Made by a program: the position numbers and the translations under genes. A stretch of 64,000 bases of DNA. It comes from Mycteria americana (taxonomy: Eukaryota > Chordata > Aves > Ciconiiformes > Ciconiidae). Within the stretch, counting starts at the first letter, position 1; the number at the start of each line of letters is the position of its first letter. Below, piece by piece: positions 6,001-54,765 of this stretch. The stretch covers positions 47,293,501 through 47,357,500 of the forward strand of contig NC_134370.1 in assembly GCF_035582795.1 (NCBI RefSeq), read 5' to 3'. The notes beneath the pieces are model-generated. The model was not told the DNA's origin. It worked only from the letters and a program-made list of their open reading frames with translations, and did not search any database.

Positions 6001-9000
6001 TATCAGACATGTGCCAGAAACATTGGCAACTCATAAAAACAAAGAAAGGGTTTTTCAAGCATGAAGGTGATTCTGAAAGAAATCAGAATCTCTCCAACTT
6101 TAAGTTCACACCTCTGTAAATGTGTGCTATTCCATTACATATTTTGTTTCTGGCTTAGTTGTACTCATCTGCTTTAAATTAATCCTGTAAATTGTTCAAA
6201 AATAATTCCAGGTTTAGACAAGACTCTACAAAATTTCCTCAGTTCATTGCTGAACTTGATAAGAATTAGTTGACTGCTTCTTGAAGTCCTATATTTTTTC
6301 AGCTCCAGAACAAACACGGACGGTTGAGCTTCTTCTAGAATATGGTATCTTCACTCTACTAGGTTTCCTCAGCTTACACTTTTGGTCTATTGTCAGAGCT
6401 AAAGTCTTGAGAGAACATCTTACGGTGCTAATTATGCTGCTGGCAGATCTCATTGGCATATTTTGAAATGGAGGCAATAAAACCTGATCTTAGGGTGCCG
6501 ACTGGAGCAGAGTTCTCTGCTTCAGGAGGGATTTAGGTGGGAAATCTAACTGAAAATTGTTTCATTTTCTTGATGACCAACTGTTTAATCAGTGCTGTCT
6601 AAGTGATAAACACTTTGGGGGTGAAAGGAGAGGTAGCATGGGATTTGGGAGAGGTGTGAACGGATGTAAACTAGTTATCTGTGTGGTGGCATTCTATTAT
6701 ACAAACTAGTAAAAACCCGACATGCCCAAATTGCAGTTGCAATTTATCTACTTTTACAGTTGTTTATGAAGGTCTTGAGGTTGCCAATGGCTCTAAAGCC
6801 TAGGACTGATGTGCAATCACAGTATATGCAGCTTTATTTTCTTGTCCCATGAAAGCTTCCCTGTACAGTGCTCAGGACTGGGCTGGTAAGAAATTAGCCC
6901 CGTAAGATACTAACAAGTGTCCTTCCTTACAAGTACTGAAGATGTTTTGAGTGTGTCCTTGGATATTCTTTGCTGATAGCACACAAAATGTATAGCGAGA
7001 ATTACAACAGGGTAAGATAGTATTCCTACTAGTGTAGTCTAGGATGCAATTCAGTTACAAGTAACATCTTCTGATACCACCCAGAATCAGTATTAAGTAC
7101 CTTGTTTTTCTTCCCATACAGCATGTCATTTATCACATGGTTGAACTCTTTCTCCACAACTGTTTTGTCTTTGTGTGCTACAGGCTGACACCTTGAAAGA
7201 GAGGTATCAGAAGATTGGGGACACAAAGAGAAACACTCCGGTTGAAGTTCTCTGTGAGAACTTTCCAGGTAAAGCCCTGATGGGACCATTTGAGTGCAGC
7301 TGGAGGTGGACATACCTTGTTAAAAATGATGGTTCTGAGCTCCTCTGGCAGAAAGTATTTGGATGATGTGTATCCATTATGCTGTTTCTCAAGCTGGCAG
7401 ACAACTGGAGCTGCTGCTATAAATTAGCAGGGCCTGAGGGCTTGTGGCTGTGGCTTAAAATGAGCATAACTCTTCTCATCAAGGAGGCTGGACAATGTTC
7501 AAGTGCCATGTGTTCCTGCTTTGCTTCTTGGCTTCCCTCCAAAAGAGGGCCTTGTAGTTTCCATCTCTCAAGTGACCATGTTGGATCTACTGAGTTAATT
7601 CTTTTCCAAATGGAAGGTTTTACAGGTGTTAAAATTGTAGTTGGCCAGCTTAGAAGATGGGATGATGTGTCTGTCCTTGAATTCCACCATCTGACAGCAG
7701 TTTTAAGGAGACTATTACTAAAGATGTGCTTCTAGCCAAGCCCAACACCTTTTCTCCAGTTAAACAAAAGTCAACCTTGGAGCTAGGAAAGCTCTAACAA
7801 AGTTAAAGCCCTCCCCAGGTATGCTGTGGCCTTCACAGAGTGGGGTTTTTTGGTGTTTTTTGAAATCCTGACACCAGGGAGAGCACCCAGGTCCCCACGA
7901 TCAGCCCCATTCTTGTAGGAGCCATTGTTGTCATATGGCTCTTTCCCAGTGTGAGGAGCAGCAAGCCTGGAAGGGGATTGTTGTTCCCTCAAGTCATGCT
8001 AATTCCCCAGACATATTTGCATCCAAAATCCACCCAGTTCCAAGCAGAACAGCTTCAGGTTGGCTGTTCTGCTTGGAACTGGGTGGATTTTGGATGCAAA
8101 TAGTCCAATACTCGTTCCTCAGAGCTGGGTCACACCTGCAGGTCTGGGCTGAAGTGAGATGAGAGAACTTATTTCTATTCCTTACTCATCTGAAACCTGT
8201 TGGTCCTCCACCTTTCAGCAATACTTGCAGGAAGAGGAGATTACCTTTCTTCTCCTCCTTTTTTTCCTCTTTTACCTCCGTGTGACATGCAAGCTGCAAG
8301 CCACAGGCAGAGTTAAGTATCAATAAGCAATGCTGTTCTTATTTTTGTTAGCTAAAGGCAAAAACCATGCTGGTGTATCAGTCGTACTGCAGTGCCCAGT
8401 CTCACACCTTGTACTGAGCTCTGCTCAAATGTCCTACCTTGGTTTAGGCGTGAGCCAAGACAGAGCTGGGAAGGGGCAGGACATGAGTTACCAGGGCTCA
8501 GTTCTCTGTGCATGCAGAGTACGACCCAGATGCAGGAAAGCAATTAATTAGCTTAACACCAAACACTGTTCTGTGTGCACTAGGTAAATTAACGCTGGAG
8601 CCTCCCCTTTGAAGTCTTGTTTTGAATATTCAAGGCTATGACTGATGTAATAACGTTGGGCAGCACAGTGCTTTGGGCAGCACAGTGCTCTGGGCAGCCA
8701 GACCCTAGTTGTTGCTGGAGCTCAGGGGTGCCATGGGGTGCCCACCAACATCTCCTGCTTTCCTTCCCCAGATGAAATTGCTATTGCTATTTTAAACATC
8801 TGTTTTGGCTCAGTGTTCAGTTGGCAGGTTCAGTGAGTTGGCATTTATTGTACAGTGTGTTTTAGTGTTTGTTTTTTATACAAATGTATAGAATCAAACT
8901 AGCTGTGGAACTCAGATTTGAGGTAGAGCAGCAGCTCTCTGGAGCAGAGGTGGGACTTCCATCTTTGCTTGAGAAGTGTTTGAATTGATTTGCATTGTGG

Positions 9001-12000
9001 ACTATTACTAAAACCCACTACTTTTATAGGAAAAGCCAGAGGTAGCACCGGTAGCCCACACAATTCTCTCACAGCATGATGCTCAATGCTAAAACACAGA
9101 CCTTGGTTTATAACAACTCATTCAGAAGATTCAGAATAAAAGCAGACTATTATTAGACTTTGGGCAGGGCAGGAAGGCTCTGGAAAGCTGAGTGAGATTC
9201 ATGTAGCAATAAAAGACTGTTGAGTAGGTCACTGAGGGTGAAGATTTGTTGGATATCCTCAGCTTCTGTCAATCCGCATGGCTCAGCTGAACTTAGCAGA
9301 GCCTGGACAACTCATGTCACTGGTGATCAGGCCCTCAGCCCAACTTTAAGCACCAACTTTGAGCCTAGTGCCATGGGAAAGCCTAGTTGGAGTTAATTGA
9401 AAAGCATATTTCCAGTGTGTGCATCAGCTCTGAGAGGCTGTGAGTGATGGAGCTCATGTGTGAGCAGAACTGACGCTGCTGCTTTTTCCCCCTTTTCCAA
9501 CAGAGGAGATGGCCACGTACCTCCGTTATGTTCGGCGATTAGACTTCTTTGAGAGACCAGACTACGATTATTTACGAACCATCTTCACAGAGCTATTTGA
9601 AAAGAAAGGCTACACCTTTGACTATGCCTATGACTGGGTCGGCAGGCCAATTGTAAGTTGTCCCTGCAAAATGCAGTGCCTTGCCTTCCATGTGCTGCTT
9701 CCCCACCACCTGGATCTTTGTTCCTGATAACCCCAATTAATGCCAGTGAGCTTAGGATCAAATCTTTCATGTCTGTTCTCTAGATAACCTGGGCTCAATA
9801 TAGTGAGATCTCCTGACGTTGTGTTCAGGGGGTTCTTGAAGTTTCCCTTAGGGGCAGAAGGCCCCTTCCCACCCCTTTGGGCTTGCCCTGGTGGAGCATT
9901 CAAATGTGATTTTCCCACTTGTGGCAATGAACGTGACTAGACTTAATTTCGTCTAGTCTAGCACAGGATTTGAGATCAATATCTAAAGACATCCATCTTA
10001 AAGCAGGAGAGCATACTTGCTATCTCAGCATTGAATGGTGGAAGACCTCTATAGTGGTCGAGTTCTGATCGAGACGTATGGGAGATCTAGGCAGGGCTCT
10101 GATGGATGCCCAGTGAATAGTAACAGCAAACCAGTTCTGAGCTCAAAAGATCTTGGGGCTTACCCTACTCTGGAGGCTGAACCAGCTCTTTATAGGATAT
10201 GGCAAGGAAATGTGGGAGTAACCAAGCTCCATTTGGCAGTTCCATGACACCAGATGGACCATAATAGTGATCTCATTGCGTCGCTTCTATTGTCAAAAGC
10301 CATTTATACTCACGAAGACCTTGGCCAAAAGATGTGTCATGGGGAAATCTGATAGAAGAGTCTAAAGCTCTTCCGCTGGCTGCCTGTCGCTTGTGTTTTG
10401 TGTCATTCTGCTGATAGCCTTCTTGCTAATGGCCAGTCGCCATACACCAGCAATGGCAAAGGCATCTGTAAATTAATTGTCACTGGTGCCAGATCAAATG
10501 CCTTCAGTGCTAAACTTGGTACCATTGCTGGTGATTTACCATCCCAACTATATTTAGCACTACCAATGTTTACTGTGCCCAAAACAGTTCATCTTCATAA
10601 GAAATCATTGCCTTTGTGAATCGTGATTTCTCTCCTCATTTTTGTTTAATTACAAAGGCAATTGATAAAAAGTCCCTTCTAAGACAAGCATGCTATTGCT
10701 GACAACTGCAGTGGTTGCTATGGAGATTTTGATGTTGTGAGCAGGGATTATGACTTTGGTGAGAATCGAGCAGATGAAGCTTTAATTTTTTTAACATGTC
10801 CTTTTTCTATTCAAGTGTGGTTTTTAAAAGTGGCAAGACAATGAGATGAGGAAAACAAGTCTGTATATTTTCAGTTGTAATAATCCTATGCAAGACACAT
10901 TAGGTGTGATCTGACAACGATACAGATACCTAACTATATATTTTTAATTCATTTTTATACAAGATGCTTGTCAGTGGTGTCCAGCATCAAATCACATGTC
11001 CATCAAATCACAGGGATTTTACAGCCCTGGCTGTAATTTTCCTTGGTTATTGTCAGTACCTTTGGGTAGTGTTTTGATGTTTTCCTGCTTCTACCCGATG
11101 GGAGCCAGCCTGACAAGTTAGGTTTGTGCATGCATGTGTTGAGAGAGAGAGGCATCTTCAGCATTGGCTTCATCCTAATGAACGCCTTGTTTTCCAGCCT
11201 ACTCCAGTGGGATCCGTTCACGTAGATTCTGGGACGTCCGCAGTAACAAGAGACAGCCACGTCCATAGGGATCGACCATCGCAGCAGGCCCTTCGCAATC
11301 AGGTGCGTTGCTCACAACTGCTTCAGCAGTGCCATGTGGTTCATCACCTTTCTGAATTCCCCTTGGACTGGGGAAGCAGAAACCATATGCCATTAGAGGT
11401 GGCTGGGGCTGATTCTTGCCTTGGTCATGGCAAGCACTATTCCTGCTTAACTTAGAGGTTGTGATTTGAGTAGAATTTTGTCAAAGCAAAGGTTGCTGAA
11501 ATACTGTATCGACCAGTGGAATTCCTCGGGATCGTGAACCAAGTGGAGTACAATTTGGAATGGGTCATTTTTCTGTAGTTTGTGGGTAAGCTGTTTAACT
11601 CAACTGTCCAGCATGGTCAGACTATCTGACCTACCTGGCCAACCATATTCTTTTGGGTGCTTTTACTCATAGCACATGGACCGTGGGGTAGACCAACTGC
11701 TGTGGCAATGGCAGTCTGCCCCCAGGTGCCCTCTTCCCATGGACCGTGCAGCTGCAATAAGGATGTACGTGTCCTGTGTATGTGCAATATATCCTTCACA
11801 GGGTGTCCAGTTCACGGCGTGAGTGTTGCAGAGCATAAAGGACTGCCAGGGTAGGGTCCCTTGGGGAGGCTGGGCATCATGGTCCAGATGAACTGGACCC
11901 ATTTTTTCCTTTCTAGCTGTAATACTTTGTTGGTGTTGAGAGTTTGGATTTTCTATATTAACAGAACTGATCAGAAGTTCAGTAGATCTCCAACTGCTGG

Positions 12001-18000: not shown

Positions 18001-21000
18001 GAGAAAACAGTCAACATAATACAGTTTGTGTGTGTATATAGGGCTGTCAATTAGGTTTCACACTAATGGCTACACCTCCCAAAGTGGTGTAGCCTCCCAA
18101 AGACACAAGACCTGTGCTGGCCACAAGAGTGTGAATTAGTGAACACAAACCCAGTCCCCTGCCTGCTGTTCTGCTTGGGATGAAACAGCTGGTCTCTCCA
18201 AACCAGGCACATGATTCAAAGGCATCCAAGGAATCTGACAGCCTGCTAAGAGGGTGCAAAGAGACAGGAGCAAACAAAAGTTATTCCGCAGATTTCCCAT
18301 TCCCACAGCATCCCTTGTCCAGGCAGGTGGAGACACGTCACATGCAAGGGGGCTTCGTTAATGGGGTTTTCATTTGTGTTTCAGGTGGTTAGCTCAACCA
18401 ACGGGGAGCTGAATGTGGACGACCCAACAGGGGCACACTCCAACGCACCAATAACAGCGCAGGCGGAGGTGGAGGTGGTGGAGGAAGCTAAGTACGTTTG
18501 CTTTACAAACAGGCTTTCCACTGGTGTGGTCATTAATCCTCCTCCTGGGAAACGAGTGGGGATGTTTACCCATGGTGAAGTACTTGATGCTCATGTCCCA
18601 TGCCCTTTTCCTTGCATATTGCTGCTTTTGTGCATGGTGCCTTCAGTGCTGCTGCTGCTGCTGCTGCTGCTGCTTTTTTACACTTGTCATGGCTGGAGAA
18701 CGTAACTCTTACTCAGAGCATGTATTGCAAGATAGACAGTAGCACAAATACCAAAATAATGTGAATTGATTTCAGGAATCCCAGTGAGCGTCCCCTGTTC
18801 CAAAAGGAGAACATGCTGTACTCTTGTGCTGAGAGTGTAGGAGTAGCATGAGCACAGCTCAGTGAAGAGATTGTAGGTCTGAAAGTTAACACTTTATTTC
18901 TGGCTGCAAGAAGTGGATGCCAGGTATCCAGAACAGTCCTAAAGTAACTCTTGCAGGGACAGGTAGTTCTCTCTGTGAATTCTCTTGGTCCAGCCCAACA
19001 GAAGCTGAGAAAAACCAGGAGCAGCCCTCCTGCTTGTGGGGAAGAGCGTGCTCCCTCTGAGCTGACCTCTCCTCTGTAGCTTGTGGTCAAGTGAGAACTG
19101 ATGTACAAAGTTGCTGCTTTGACCATTTTGGCCTCCTTTGCACACGTGCTGCATCTGGCACCATCATGTCACCTTTTGCATGATCCTCAACATGGGACCT
19201 TCTTGCTGCCTCTGAACTAGACCAGGACCCTAGCAGGTCACGGTGTAATCCTGATACTCCCTGTGTGAGGGGTAAATAGGCCCCAGGGCTGCCTTTGAAC
19301 TGGTCAGTGCTGTGACGTTGCCCAACTGCCTGGTTGTAATTTGAGTGGATGACACTGGTGTCACTTGTCCCATGTTGTTTGTCTCAGCCTTTGTGGGAAC
19401 TTCTGTTAGGAATGGCTTGTGGGAGGGTGAAGAGGAAAACTGGCAGGTGTGAGAAAGGGTGTGTTGATGGAAAAGGTCCCTAGGTATGCGTCAGTCTGAA
19501 GCCAGTGCTGGTTGTCCTGAAGGTCTTCTGCTGTCTATTCCTCTGTGCTTCGCGAAGCACTTGTGTGTGATCTTGCTTTCTGGTAGCTGACCTGGGTGTG
19601 ATCCTGGTAGCAACGTGCCCAAGCAACAGATACCCTTTCTCCTCCCAGCCAAAGGAGGGAGCCTTGGTTTTGGTGCAGGCTCCTCAAAGTACGGTGGGGT
19701 GGGGAAATCTTGAGGTGCAACTTGTGGATTGGGCAATATTCCTCTTAGATATGGGTAGTGTGACCTGCAGAGACCACCAGTTTGGCGTCACAGGCTCTGT
19801 CTTAGTCAGACTGAAGTGGGTGTCTCCCCCGGGCATAGGGCTTGGGGTTGCCCCTAGAAAGGATGGGGCAAATTGCCACCCTTAACAGTTCTTGATACAA
19901 CAACCCAATGCAAGGAAGAGCCAGCTTTTAAGATGGGACCGCCTTTAGCCTGTTTCTGCAGCGCCTTGTTCAGTGAGGACAGGGTCCAGACCCCACACCC
20001 GTAGAGGGGAGATGTCAAGACAGGTGAAAAGGAGCGTGTAAGGGCTGTGCTGCCCAAGCCGTGTCTCACGATGTGTGGAACTGTTCTGTCTCCCTCCAGC
20101 CCTTGTTTGTGTGGTCCCAAATTGGTTTTGGAGGTTCTGGGAAGCAGAGCATGGGCTGCTTTGCACTGACAGGTTTGGGGTATCTTGTAATTCCCAAGTG
20201 TAGTCCGCTTCGTTCCTCTTGCCACAGGGAGGGCTGGCTTCATCTTCCCTTGCATCTGTGATCATAAATCCCCTCAGATATATGCGGAGGGCAAAGGACT
20301 TTTGGATTCTGCTCTGCAGTAAAGCAGGCCAAAAAGAGCTAGAAGGAGCTGGAGCTGGGCGTCTGTGTTTCAAGACGAGATGCAATAGCAGAAACGTCTT
20401 CCTCTGGCACTCCGGCAGGCAGAGGAGTTGTGCAAATGCTTCTGCTTTGGGGTACGCTGGAGATAAGCTCCTGATCCTGGCCATGGGTTTCACTGAAGGG
20501 CAGGTCCCAGGCGCAGATCCATGATCTGGCCCTTCTGTCACTGGAGCTGCAGGGGACAAGAGCAGATTCCTCTCCTGGTGTCCCTGAGCCCCTTTCTGAT
20601 CCCAGCCTCAGATAAGAACCTCATGGGCCTGGTGCCTTCATGGAAAACAGGGGGTGTTTGGCAGAGGCCTCAAGACCCTGGAAAATGTGGCAGTTCTCAG
20701 CAGCGCCATGGCAAGGGCAGAGGTGGTATGAGGGCTGGGGGTGGGCCGCGGGCAGGTATGGTGTGTGTCTGCCAGTCTGCACTGCATGTTTGCATGGCTG
20801 CAGTGACATGCTTTCATCCCACCTCTGTAAACTAATTGCTCTTTCTTCCTTTCTGTGTTTTTTCTCTACACTCTCTGTAGCTGCCTGAAAATGCTCAACT
20901 TGTGGTGAGTCCCTCTCTCCAGTCCACATGCAAGGGGGAGCGGACCAGACTAGACTGGGGTTGGCAAAATCAAACCGACCAAACCCTAAAATGGCACAAA

Positions 21001-50300: not shown

Positions 50301-51608
50301 CCCAAAAACCTGAGGCCAGCAGCTGGCTGGGGAGGGATTCAGCCTGGGAAAGCACCAGTGAGTGTTTTAACTCTCCTCCTGTCTGCTGGTCACTGTCTGG
50401 AGCAAATGCTGGCACAGCTGGCCAAAGCTAGCATGAGTTAACACCAACAGCCTTCAACAATCAGGGATTCCACACAGGAGACTACTCAAAAAAAGGTGCT
50501 GAAATCCTTCACCATTCACACCTCCACCTTCAGCAGGGAATTTGTGCAGCAACAGTGACCTGGTTTGCTGAACAAGTACCACCAAGCTTTCCTAGCCCCT
50601 CCTGCAGCCAATTGTGCTGGTACAAGGCAAAGGAGATCACCAAGGTGTTGGTGACCCAGGGACATCAGATGCCTCCTGTCATCTCACCCCCGCTGCACGG
50701 AGGGGTTCATCACCCAATACCAAACTGAAGGCAGCAAGCACCATGCCAGCCACACCAGCACCCTCTGGATGTTGAAGGGACGCAAGCTGATGCTGGGGGA
50801 AGGAAGACAGGGCTTTCCCCCATGAAGTCTCACAAGCTGCATAGCAAAGATGCTGAGCAAGGGCCACCAGCAGGTTTCAAACCAGCCAGGCAGCCCACTC
50901 ATGAGTTACTCTGACCCTAATCTGGGAGAGTAGCAGACAACTACCCCCAGCGCCATGGCCAAGCCACGCAGGGACATCTTCACACTGACGGGCTCCTTCG
51001 TGATGCTCAGGTTCTGCAAGAATTGACAGGTTATAACCCTGGGGAAATAGAGATCAGCTCAGCACGAGCCGTTCCGCAGTCCCGCAGCCAAGGGAGCCAC
51101 CTGCTCCCCCAGGACCCACTCCCCGAGCACCCACCTTGCCCCTGCGGCACACCCCTCCACAGCCACCCAAGGCACCTGAGGTGCTCTCAGAGAGGGAGGA
51201 GACGCCGGGGTCCCTACAGGGACAAGCACCCTTAGACATCGCCCCCCTCCTCTTTTATATTGGGCGGTTCCCCCCTTTTTTAACCAAACCTGGAGAATGC
51301 CACGCCGCTGCCTGCAGGCACGGGGCCGCCCCTCAGAGAAGGGCCCACCTGCAGGCACCGCTAGGCCCAGCCCCGCAGCTCCTCCCTCACAGCGGCCGCG
51401 GGCCGGGCCTACCCCCGGGGCCGCTCCCGCTCACCCCTCCCCCACTGCGCCCCGCACTCACGGTGCCAGTGAAGATGTCCTCGCCCTCCGTGTCGCTGTC
51501 GGCCGCCCCCGGCGCGTCGCTGTCACCGCCGTAGGGCTCGGGGAAGGGCGGGGGGAGGCGCTCAGCGGGGGAGGGGGAGCGGGACCTGCAGACGCCACCT
51601 GACGCCAT
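35340..51608 (-). CDS. SNX1: Sorting nexin 1 (PX-BAR, retromer-associated)
   Basis: SNX1 pairs with SNX5 or SNX6 to tubulate endosomes for retrieval to the Golgi. Fifteen coding exons, in transcript order: 51462-51608, 46777-46879, 45714-45850, 44342-44408, 43098-43141, 41902-42043, 41282-41360, 40471-40546, 39326-39439, 39080-39173, 38260-38465, 36728-36871, 36256-36336, 35711-35782, 35340-35390. Borders are GT-AG, phases agree, and the product is 518 aa (human 522). The N-terminus has [13 protein letters not shown], the region known to bind retromer, and [13 protein letters not shown]. The PX domain spans about residues 138-267 ([25 protein letters not shown]). An amphipathic linker and the BAR domain cover about 275-518, ending [13 protein letters not shown]. 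Intron 1, near 4.6 kb, is the largest. The start MASGG matches the human protein. Confidence 0.97.
36872..38259 (-). other. SNX1 intron 11
   Basis: The intron lies between the exons at 38260-38465 and 36728-36871. It has no recognised exon, RNA gene or repeat. Confidence 0.75.
39440..41281 (-). other. SNX1 introns 7 and 8
   Basis: Intron 8 (39440-40470) and intron 7 (40547-41281) flank the exon at 40471-40546. I see no further gene or mobile element in either. Confidence 0.75.
41361..45713 (-). other. SNX1 introns 3 to 6
   Basis: The introns here are 41361-41901, 42044-43097, 43142-44341 and 44409-45713. The only simple repeat noted is an A-run of about 20 bases near 42830-42849, followed by CCACCA units. 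No other feature was supported. Confidence 0.75.
46880..51461 (-). other. SNX1 intron 1
   Basis: This 4.6-kb intron starts with the donor GTGAGT next to the CpG island and ends TTTACAG. No exon, structured RNA or recognisable mobile element was seen. The reading frames present are short and unrelated to known proteins. Confidence 0.75.
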
Positions 51609-51830
51609 GTCCGTGCTGCTGCCGCTGCCGCCGCTTCCGCCTGCGACAGCCGCGCCGGAAACCGCCGCCGCCGCCTTAACCTGCCGGGGCGGGGCCGGAG
51701 GGGCGGGCGACCTCCGGATTGGGCGGTGCCTCCGCCCGCCCCGCCTTCCCCCGCCAGGGAGAGCCAATGAGCGCCACAGTTTTCCTCCGCTGGCAGGCGT
51801 CGCTCCGTCCCCGTGGAAACGGCCACGAGC
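51250..51830 (-). promoter_or_regulatory. SNX1: CpG island and promoter of SNX1
   Basis: A dense CpG island covers SNX1 exon 1 and the upstream flank. CCAAT-type sites are at 51718-51722 (ATTGG) and 51764-51768 (CCAAT). No TATA box was seen. A run of 21 G bases at 51833-51853 sits just upstream of the island. Confidence 0.75.
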
Positions 51831-51832
51831 CT

Positions 51833-51853
51833 GGGGGGGGGGGGGGGGGGGGG
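51833..51853. repeat. Run of 21 G
   Basis: An uninterrupted homopolymer of 21 G lies about 225 bp upstream of the SNX1 start codon. It can form a G-quadruplex on the plus strand, and its length is prone to sequencing error. Confidence 0.9.
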
Positions 51854-52029
51854 AAATGGCCTACCGGGATGTACCATTGCGCCGGCGGAGGGGGAGCATG
51901 TCCCCCCAGGGGCAGTGGGCGAGCCCAGGCCTGAGGGGATTGAGGGGGGCGGGGCGGGGGCCTCTGCGTGGGGAGGGCGGCAAGGGCGGGTGCACCCACG
52001 GGCTGGCACCGCGCATCTCCTCAGCGCCT

Positions 52030-52455
52030 GGCCAGGATGGCCGTGGTCCCCTCAACACCCCAGCTGAGATGGCCATGGTCCCCTCAATGACCGAACTAGC
52101 CTTGGTCCCCTCAACACCCCAACCAAGATGGCCATGGTCCCCTCCACTGAGGGGAGCCAGCTCAGACCCAATGCCCCAACTGAGATAGCCATCAACCCCT
52201 CGATGCCTTAACCCAGACACCATGGTGCCTTTGATGTCCCAACCAAGATGGCCACAGACTCTCTGTGCCCCAGCCAAGATGGCTGTGGTCCCTTCAACGC
52301 TCCTACCACAACAGCCACCCTCCCTTGAGTACCCAAACAGAGGTGGCCATAGTCCCCCTCAGTGCCCTGACCAAGATAGCTGCAGTTCCCTCAACACCTC
52401 AACCCAGGACAGCTGCCATCCCCTCCACAACCTGACCAGGATGGCCACCTGTTCA
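52030..52455. repeat. Minisatellite with a unit of about 30-32 bp
   Basis: About a dozen diverged copies of a unit like GATGGCCATGGTCCCCTCAA followed by CACCCCAACCAA run in tandem. Early copies keep near-identical cores, and later ones are more diverged. AAGATGGC within the unit resembles a YY1 core. It lies in the spacer between SNX1 and PATL2. Confidence 0.9.
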
Positions 52456-52574: not shown

Positions 52575-52705
52575 TCTTCCCTGCATCCCAGCATGAGTCC
52601 CATACCTCCCAAGATATCCTAGGATGAGCCCCATACCCTGAAGACATCCCAGGATGAGTCCCATACCTCCTGAGATATCCCAGGATGAGCCCTATTTCCC
52701 TAAGA
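52575..52705. repeat. Short tandem repeat, unit of about 30 bp
   Basis: About four copies of a unit of the type GGATGAGTCCCATACCTCC followed by GAGATATCCCA are in tandem. The unit is unrelated to the neighbouring minisatellite at 52030-52455. Confidence 0.88.
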
Positions 52706-54765
52706 CAGTGACTCCCCTTGGTCCAGCTGCTCACTCATGGTGATGGTTCACCACCACCCAACAGGGTTGGTGGCTCTTTTGGGACAGTGCCAGGAGGAGC
52801 CAGGCAAGGCAGGCAGGTAGATAAAGCAGAGCCAGGTGAGACACCCTAGACTTTCATCAGCTTTGGGTTAAGGGAGATAAACCAGATGGGGTCTCTGAGC
52901 TGCTGGACACCCCTCAGATGAATTAACTCACTGGGTGGTGCCCCAGGGAGAGGGTCTCTTTCTCCTGGCAGGAAGCGCTGAGGAGGCTGCTAGGTGGTGT
53001 GGGTCCCTCAGTTGTGGGAGAGTAACCAAAAGAAATGTATTTTCCTTCTTTTGTCTCAGCTGTTTCCTGCAACAAAGCAGCAAAGTCCAGTAAAGACCTC
53101 CAGCCCTTCTACATTGGAGCATTTAGTTTCGTACATGATTGCAACAGTGTCACACTTTCCTCCTCCATCCCTGTTGGCTCTCAGGCCAGGAGCGCTCTTG
53201 CTAGGTCTGCACTCTGCTCTGTTGCAAACAGAAAACATAACACTGCTTATCCTTATCTTGAAGGACTCACGGGTGTCCTCCTCTCTTCCTACAAATCAAT
53301 GAGCAGCTGCTAGTTCCCTTCTGTCTGAAATTGCCTCTAGGGCTTGTAGTGGCAAGGTCCATCCTTTTGCTTACAGGGGGGTCACCACGCAGGTATTGTC
53401 CCAGATTGCCTTGGTGGGTTAAAACTATAGGTTTCACCCTGATGACAACCTGCCAGCATCACTCTCTTGAAGTGACATAGCAGGGGATGACTAGAGATGC
53501 ATAGGGATTAACACAGCTGTCCCAAAGAAGAACTTTCCAACAATAAAGCGTGAGGAGCAAGCACAGAAGGCTTTGGACCTGCCTTTGGCAAAACTAATTT
53601 TGAGGGCGGAGGAAAGGCTGAAGCTGTAGGACACCAAGATGAGCAGGAGAGGCATCAGGATGACAAAAGCAGCTGCCAGAATGATCTGGAGCTCCTTCCA
53701 GCTGGACCTTGCACCCTTTTAGATGATTGACAGCCTATACCTCACCTCTAGCACGAAGGGCAGGAGTCCCCCCTAGGTCCTGCATCACATCTGCAGCACC
53801 TCTTGTCTTTGTACAGCCATATTCAGACATTTCAGAAGCTGAGATGTGAGCTGTCTCAGTAAGCCATGGAGATAAATCCCACCCAATCACTCAGCCATAC
53901 CAGTCATATCCTTATTTTCTGCAAATTCTCCATGTGCATTAGTTTGACCTCTGGAGGGTGTCAGTTTAAAGGAACAGTTTCATCTACATGGGGCTGGAGC
54001 TTGGGCACATATGATAGCCACCAGGTCTGAAGATGAGACAACTTTCTGGTGCAAACCTCTTTTGAATACATACCAGGCTTTGGGTTTCAAGCTTAGAGCT
54101 CCAGATGGGCATCCAGGTGCTTAGGCACAGGTGTCCTAGGCTCAGATATCCCCTAGGGTTAGGGGAAATCCCACCATATACCCCTGGAAGCCAGGCAGGA
54201 GCCACAAAGGTTTCTACAGTAGACCAGACGCTGCACCTAGGCACCCCCTCAGCCCTAGATGCAGAAGTGAGGGTCAGCTTGTGGTAGTCATGGTCAGTTG
54301 AAGCAGCTCAAGAAAGATGCTGCAAGGTACTTCATCATGACCATGCCTGGAAGCCTTTAGACTAATTAGCCTTTGAGAGCTCAGCAAAGAGAGGTGCTTT
54401 ATTACCCACCCAGGTATGTTCGAGATCACCTATGTGCACCCAGATGCGCCCTCCTGACCCCGTCTTCCCCACCACATCCCTTTACTGCCAGCCCATTCCT
54501 TTCCCTGGGGGCTCAATTCCCCTCCGTCCCCAGCCACATGGGTCCTCTGATCCCCTCCACTCCCTTCTGAGCACATTGCCTTCTCCTCCATCCCCCTTTA
54601 TCCTCTTTCTGGGTCCTCTCCCCATCCCCTCCCTGCTTCTCCTTCCCCTTTACAGCGCACTCAGATCCCCACCATCCCCAACTAGGGGTCTCCATGCCCA
54701 GGCAATGCCTCCAGGACCCCTGTGCTTACAGCAGAAGCTGCCCACAGGAGCCAGAGGAGCTCATT
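52706..54765. other. Intergenic sequence between SNX1 and PATL2
   Basis: No coding exon was recognised on either strand. In particular I see no trace of CIAO2A, the gene that follows SNX1 in human. A pyrimidine-rich tract occupies about 54440-54660. Confidence 0.65.

Follow-up and report, generated by a model that had tools for sequence, protein, structure and literature searches.

Short-range template switches have been catalogued in great apes, where 4,017 significant events were reported over six comparisons; in a gold-standard set of 1,503 switches, 65.0% made the sequence longer, with copied lengths of median 12 and maximum 128 (Walker et al. 2021, PMC7954356). Perfect inverted repeats are described there as a frequent outcome of template switching. 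Perfect hairpins, and some microRNA loci such as MIR633, have been attributed to the same process, and such hairpins are said to acquire bulges after an initial, perfectly paired stage (Monttinen and Loytynoja 2022, PMC8794818). Palindromic MITEs of the Made1 type are the source of mir-548 (PMC1784062), and palindromes are discussed as possible helpers of inversion in a paper on avian microinversions (PMC3123225). We describe a perfect hairpin in an intron of the casein kinase gene CSNK1G1 and compare it with each of these systems.

The hairpin lies in a 64-kb stretch of DNA, here called the window (C6:47293501-47357500), on a contig of 71.7 Mb in a genome of 1,348,465,905 bases and 279 contigs, a size in keeping with a bird. 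A perfect inverted repeat spans positions 8014-8102 of the window, and 40 of its 40 arm pairs are complementary (Table 1). An earlier note on this DNA had described an 89-nt perfect hairpin with 39-nt arms and an 11-nt loop; the span was right, and the lengths were off by one pair, the arms being 40 nt and the loop 9 nt. The inverted repeat begins and ends with the dinucleotide TA. Being its own reverse complement, TA is part of the palindrome, and its presence at both ends is compatible with a 2-nt TA target duplication; the same note had seen no terminal duplications. Outside the arms, the fold adds three pairs between GAC and GTC across a one-base bulge. These may be due to chance, because only one of the five offsets from -2 to +2 gave a run of 3 (another gave a run of 1 and the remaining three gave 0).

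Table 1. Features of the hairpin and its host intron (positions in the window).
Feature	Position	Strand	Basis
Host intron of CSNK1G1 (GT 7269...AG 9503), 2,235 nt	7269..9503	+	Splice sites, flanking exons
GAC, partner GTC 8103-8105, one-base bulge A8013 between	8010..8012	+	Fold
Left arm, 40 nt	8014..8053	+	Inverted-repeat search and direct arm comparison
Octamer ATTTGCAT, left arm	8015..8022	+	Motif search
Loop TTCAGGTTG, 9 nt	8054..8062	+	Sequence between arms
Right arm, 40 nt, exact reverse complement of left arm	8063..8102	+	
Octamer ATTTGCAT, copied with right arm	8094..8101	-	Motif search
GTC, partner GAC 8010-8012	8103..8105	+	Fold

The host gene was identified from its exons. The exon from 3067 encodes 75 residues identical to the gamma-1 casein kinase chain 2cmw, with casein kinase I gamma-1 as its closest match, while four aligned residues ahead of this exon differ from 2cmw and are probably intron. 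Other exons were placed at about 4976 onwards, 7184-7268, 9504 onwards, 11198, 18385, and 23974 by sequence motifs. The hairpin starts 745 nt past the donor of its intron and ends 1,401 nt before the last intron base, on the sense strand of CSNK1G1, which bears out the earlier assignment to a CSNK1G1 intron. The arm resembles ordinary local sequence, as its G+C content (0.45) is nearly equal to that of the host intron (0.46).

Several other features of the window were recorded. The same intron contains a 17-bp tandem repeat of TTGGGCAGCACAGTGCT (2.5 copies, 96% matches; 8656-8698), about 550 nt downstream of the hairpin, with a diverged 15-nt copy of the unit at 9158-9172. The neighboring genes (30522-56757) include a cyclophilin-type isomerase exon at 30.5 kb on the + strand and, on the - strand, Vps5/sorting nexin exons at 36.1 kb (below the Pfam cutoff), 38.2 kb, and 51.4 kb, as well as a weak PAT1-like match at 56.4 kb that also falls below the Pfam cutoff. 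The order is presumably CSNK1G1, PPIB, SNX1, which we take to resemble that of human 15q22. A minisatellite of about 31 bp at 52584-52707 (61-bp higher unit, 2 copies, 87% matches) is accompanied by a second, 32-bp array at 52036-52144 and lies near an open reading frame (51387-51857, - strand) that matches the sorting nexin N-terminal domain.

Stems of this length are far beyond what the composition of this DNA would produce. Given the base composition of the window and loops of up to 100 nt, about 6e-18 arms of this kind are expected per 64 kb, and about 1e-13 in the whole genome. The window contains eight perfect inverted repeats with arms of at least 11 and spacers of up to 100, and the seven other than the hairpin have arms of 11 to 12 bp. 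Under a first-order Markov model, the longest arm in 50 simulated windows was 15. A sample of 20 random 10-kb pieces of the genome (starts at 1 to 40 Mb, contigs C1 to C6) likewise had a longest arm of 15 bp, and none of the 20 pieces held an arm of at least 16 bp with a spacer of up to 100; of the 18 arms of at least 12 listed in this sample, 9 lay within TA runs. These pieces amount to 200 kb of 1.35 Gb, a small sample that says only that hairpins like the one at 8014-8102 are not frequent. A chance origin of the 40-bp perfect stem is excluded, in agreement with the earlier description of it as far beyond chance (the second-longest arm found in the window measures 12 bp).

We then asked where else in the genome the arms occur. 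In a similarity search that scores the best candidates only and skips very common words, the 289-nt locus found one place, matching itself and its own mirror image. At E values of up to 10, the left flank, left arm, and loop taken together found only the hairpin locus, as did the loop, right arm, and right flank. In these searches the source of each arm is local and not a dispersed repeat, given that an arm with its own flank leads only to the hairpin. An exact 24-mer of the arm had no match in the viral_contigs and genome_contigs collections, which are not expected to contain birds. Within the window, 13 nt of a later CSNK1G1 intron, at 18165-18177 (- strand), match the arm's inner end (CAAGCAGAACAGC) exactly. 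When up to 2 mismatches are allowed, CAAGCAGAACAGC occurs eight times in the window, two of these being the arms, against 3.9 expected, and 5 of 100 shuffles reach eight; the 13-nt match is likely due to chance.

Searches that tolerated more mismatches bear on a rival origin, namely that the hairpin is a solitary palindromic MITE of the Made1 kind, 85 bp long with 38-bp inverted ends and inserted at a duplicated TA. We regard this as unlikely. Its layout would be close to that of Made1, which has 37-bp inverted ends with 6 bp between them (PMC1784062), and the TA at both outer ends would fit a TA-targeting transposon and to that extent counts against a template switch; yet any palindrome with TA at one end necessarily has it at the other. 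When up to 3 mismatches were allowed, the outer 25 nt of the arm occurred at only one place besides the hairpin locus (L025), against 0.6 to 0.7 expected under Markov models (orders 1, 2, and 4, trained on a 200-kb genome sample). The match at L025 covers 21 of 22 nt of the outer arm, and about 0.01 to 0.05 matches are expected for that word, which would speak for a MITE, with the qualification that the word was picked after the match had been seen. The inner 24-mer, again with up to 3 mismatches, occurred at four other places, each on a single strand, an excess in favor of a MITE over the 0.9 to 1.4 expected. Reversed controls of the 25-nt and 24-nt patterns found 0 matches, but only 0.11 to 0.14 and 0.04 to 0.09, respectively, were expected. 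Genome-wide, neither arm-half pattern, at up to 3 mismatches, gave a second place with the word on both strands.

Alignments at the four inner 24-mer places showed no convincing extension. The best of them, at L028, matched the loop and right arm at 34 of 42 positions, with an E value of 2.6e-5 against 15 kb of chosen loci that becomes about 2 when scaled to the genome, which argues against a MITE. We considered whether L028 might prove the right arm to be the ancestral one and dropped the idea, as a match of this quality is expected by chance genome-wide.

The outer 18-mer, with up to 2 mismatches, had 202 matches in the genome, including the hairpin's own two, against 35 for its reversed control. 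Taken at face value this would suggest a repeat family. The Markov expectations are 197 to 202 for the pattern and 47 to 51 for the control, so there is no excess of the 18-mer and the gap between the two reflects composition; with no second hairpin either, we rejected a family based on this count, and the lack of an excess among the 200 other matches weighs against a MITE. We looked for inverted repeats with arms of at least 10 within about 130 nt at 25 distinct partial-match places, comprising the 5 from the 25-nt and 24-nt patterns and 20 of the 98 other 18-mer places listed (chosen as recurrent or closest variants), and found none. Nor did any of the 20 fetched 18-mer places continue the arm past 18 nt: 14 belong to one dispersed repeat, unrelated to the arm, that diverges from it immediately past the matched word, and the remaining 6 are isolated sequences with no relation to it. 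The dispersed repeat itself (L038-L051) shows similarity over at least 110 nt, and its 14 of the 20 places come from a set chosen for recurrent words.

The multiple dispersed copies with shared inverted ends that define a MITE were thus not found in these searches, which could miss a more diverged family. Within the scope of these searches we take the arms to be single-copy and consider them unlikely to belong to a repeat family, with the reservation that a strongly diverged one could be missed. The earlier note had asked for a genome search for other copies and had named many dispersed copies as evidence against its reading; none appeared in the searches made.

We consider it probable that the hairpin was left by a single short-range template switch. 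In such an event, the growing strand would leave its template during replication or repair synthesis, copy about 40 nt of the neighboring arm backwards, with the nascent or the complementary strand serving as template, and then return to its own template. Intron sequence that is otherwise single-copy would thereby have gained a perfect reverse-complement copy at a distance of 9 nt, and the octamer ATTTGCAT now found at both ends would have been carried along by the copying. Three observations argue for this reading. Changes of one base at a time would not be expected to build a perfect 40-bp stem, so one arm was probably copied from the other. No further full copy of either arm was found in the genome, which makes the two arms each other's likely source. 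Finally, a single copying step is indicated because two identical single-copy arms sit 9 nt apart. The hairpin shows one feature expected of a template switch, a reverse-complement copy of nearby sequence at short distance (40/40, 9-nt spacer). On the other side of the balance, the 40 nt copied here far exceed the median of 12 in great apes, and whichever arm is taken as the original, the site where the strand would have returned shows no clear microhomology (0 and 1 nt, if the change was a pure insertion).

The hairpin is most likely young. With none of the 40 pairs decayed, the 95% upper limit on its age is about 11 to 31 Myr for 3.3e-9 to 1.2e-9 substitutions per site per year, unless arm-to-arm correction maintains the perfection. 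The suggestion in the earlier note that the structure arose recently fits this lack of decay (0/40). It is also most likely selectively neutral.

The earlier note had placed a POU octamer at each end of the hairpin. The positions were correct; the two are one motif duplicated with the arm and not independent sites. ATTTGCAT occurs five times in the window, three of them outside the hairpin, against 1.69 expected, and 3 of 100 shuffles reach five. Because the arm was copied whole, the two hairpin octamers represent one event and provide no evidence for a POU-bound element. We therefore rejected the octamers as independent POU sites, two of the five occurrences being a single duplicated motif.

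A further reading, in our estimation quite unlikely, is that the hairpin is very young and that a switch in CSNK1G1 has only just produced a transcribed 40-bp stem from which small RNAs are already cut; this would allow the origin of a microRNA or hairpin-siRNA locus to be followed inside a single species or genus. A related alternative, which we judge very improbable, is that the stem is a functional intronic RNA hairpin, such as a lineage-specific microRNA or another double-stranded RNA substrate, kept perfect by selection. Its sense orientation within the gene would suit such a role, as would the stability of the + strand RNA fold, at -80.8 kcal/mol, where shuffled sequences average -25.5 (sd 3.2; z -17.4); the - strand RNA folds at -79.8 kcal/mol, and the + strand folded as DNA gives -52.0. 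MicroRNAs have, moreover, been reported to arise from template-switch hairpins (PMC8794818).

Against these points, an Rfam search of the 64-kb window gave no match at the gathering score. When the threshold was relaxed for 7964-8152, 56 rows were returned on both strands, all below the gathering score and mostly from microRNA families of plants, viruses, and animals, many of them unrelated. We read these rows as what any perfect stem yields, and rejected a known Rfam RNA on the grounds that they fall on both strands and across unrelated families of different organisms. The sole CNNC motif within 30 nt 3' of the stem, at 8117, lies further out than its usual position in microRNA precursors. 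Mature microRNA precursors usually contain bulges, and the perfect pairing over all 40 bp fits newness. The earlier proposals of a Dicer or Drosha substrate, ADAR editing, or constraint thus gained no positive support, with no Rfam family at the gathering score. An assembly or library artifact (a foldback read or consensus error) is also very unlikely: no second haplotype or duplicate contig shows the locus, yet it lies within a 71.7-Mb contig with unique sequence on both sides, and foldback chimeras normally run to the read end and do not return to the correct flank after 40 nt.

The hairpin is real and well outside chance, and it is most likely the ordinary trace of a recent template switch within an intron. 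A literature search with most subscription papers outside its reach found no report of this hairpin, the CSNK1G1 papers it listed being on other matters by their titles, and the hairpin is new as a locus in the searches made and not new in kind. Compared with the avian microinversions, it shares a small reverse-complement change in avian noncoding DNA; however, a microinversion flips a segment in place, whereas the CSNK1G1 hairpin is an added inverted copy (PMC3123225). The Made1 elements are alike in size and form (80 bp, 37-bp inverted ends), and the hairpin has TA ends, but Made1 is a repeat family and the CSNK1G1 hairpin is single-copy in the searches made (PMC1784062). Hairpins of the MIR633 type share its perfect stem, origin in one event, and single-copy locus; in contrast, they are RNA loci, and the CSNK1G1 hairpin is known here from DNA sequence alone (PMC8794818). 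The great-ape switches of the four-point model are similar in that closely spaced, perfectly inverted copies are compatible with one local event, and the 40 nt copied here fall in the upper part of the great-ape range; for those switches, however, the ancestor was read from relatives, while this hairpin is known from one genome alone (PMC7954356). As it stands, the hairpin provides one clean example of a known mutation process, in what is apparently a bird genome. Were relatives to show a single-arm ancestor, its importance would rise, since copying 40 nt across a 9-nt gap is a long event by the great-ape median, and the locus would offer a dated start for the decay of a perfect stem or for the birth of an RNA gene.
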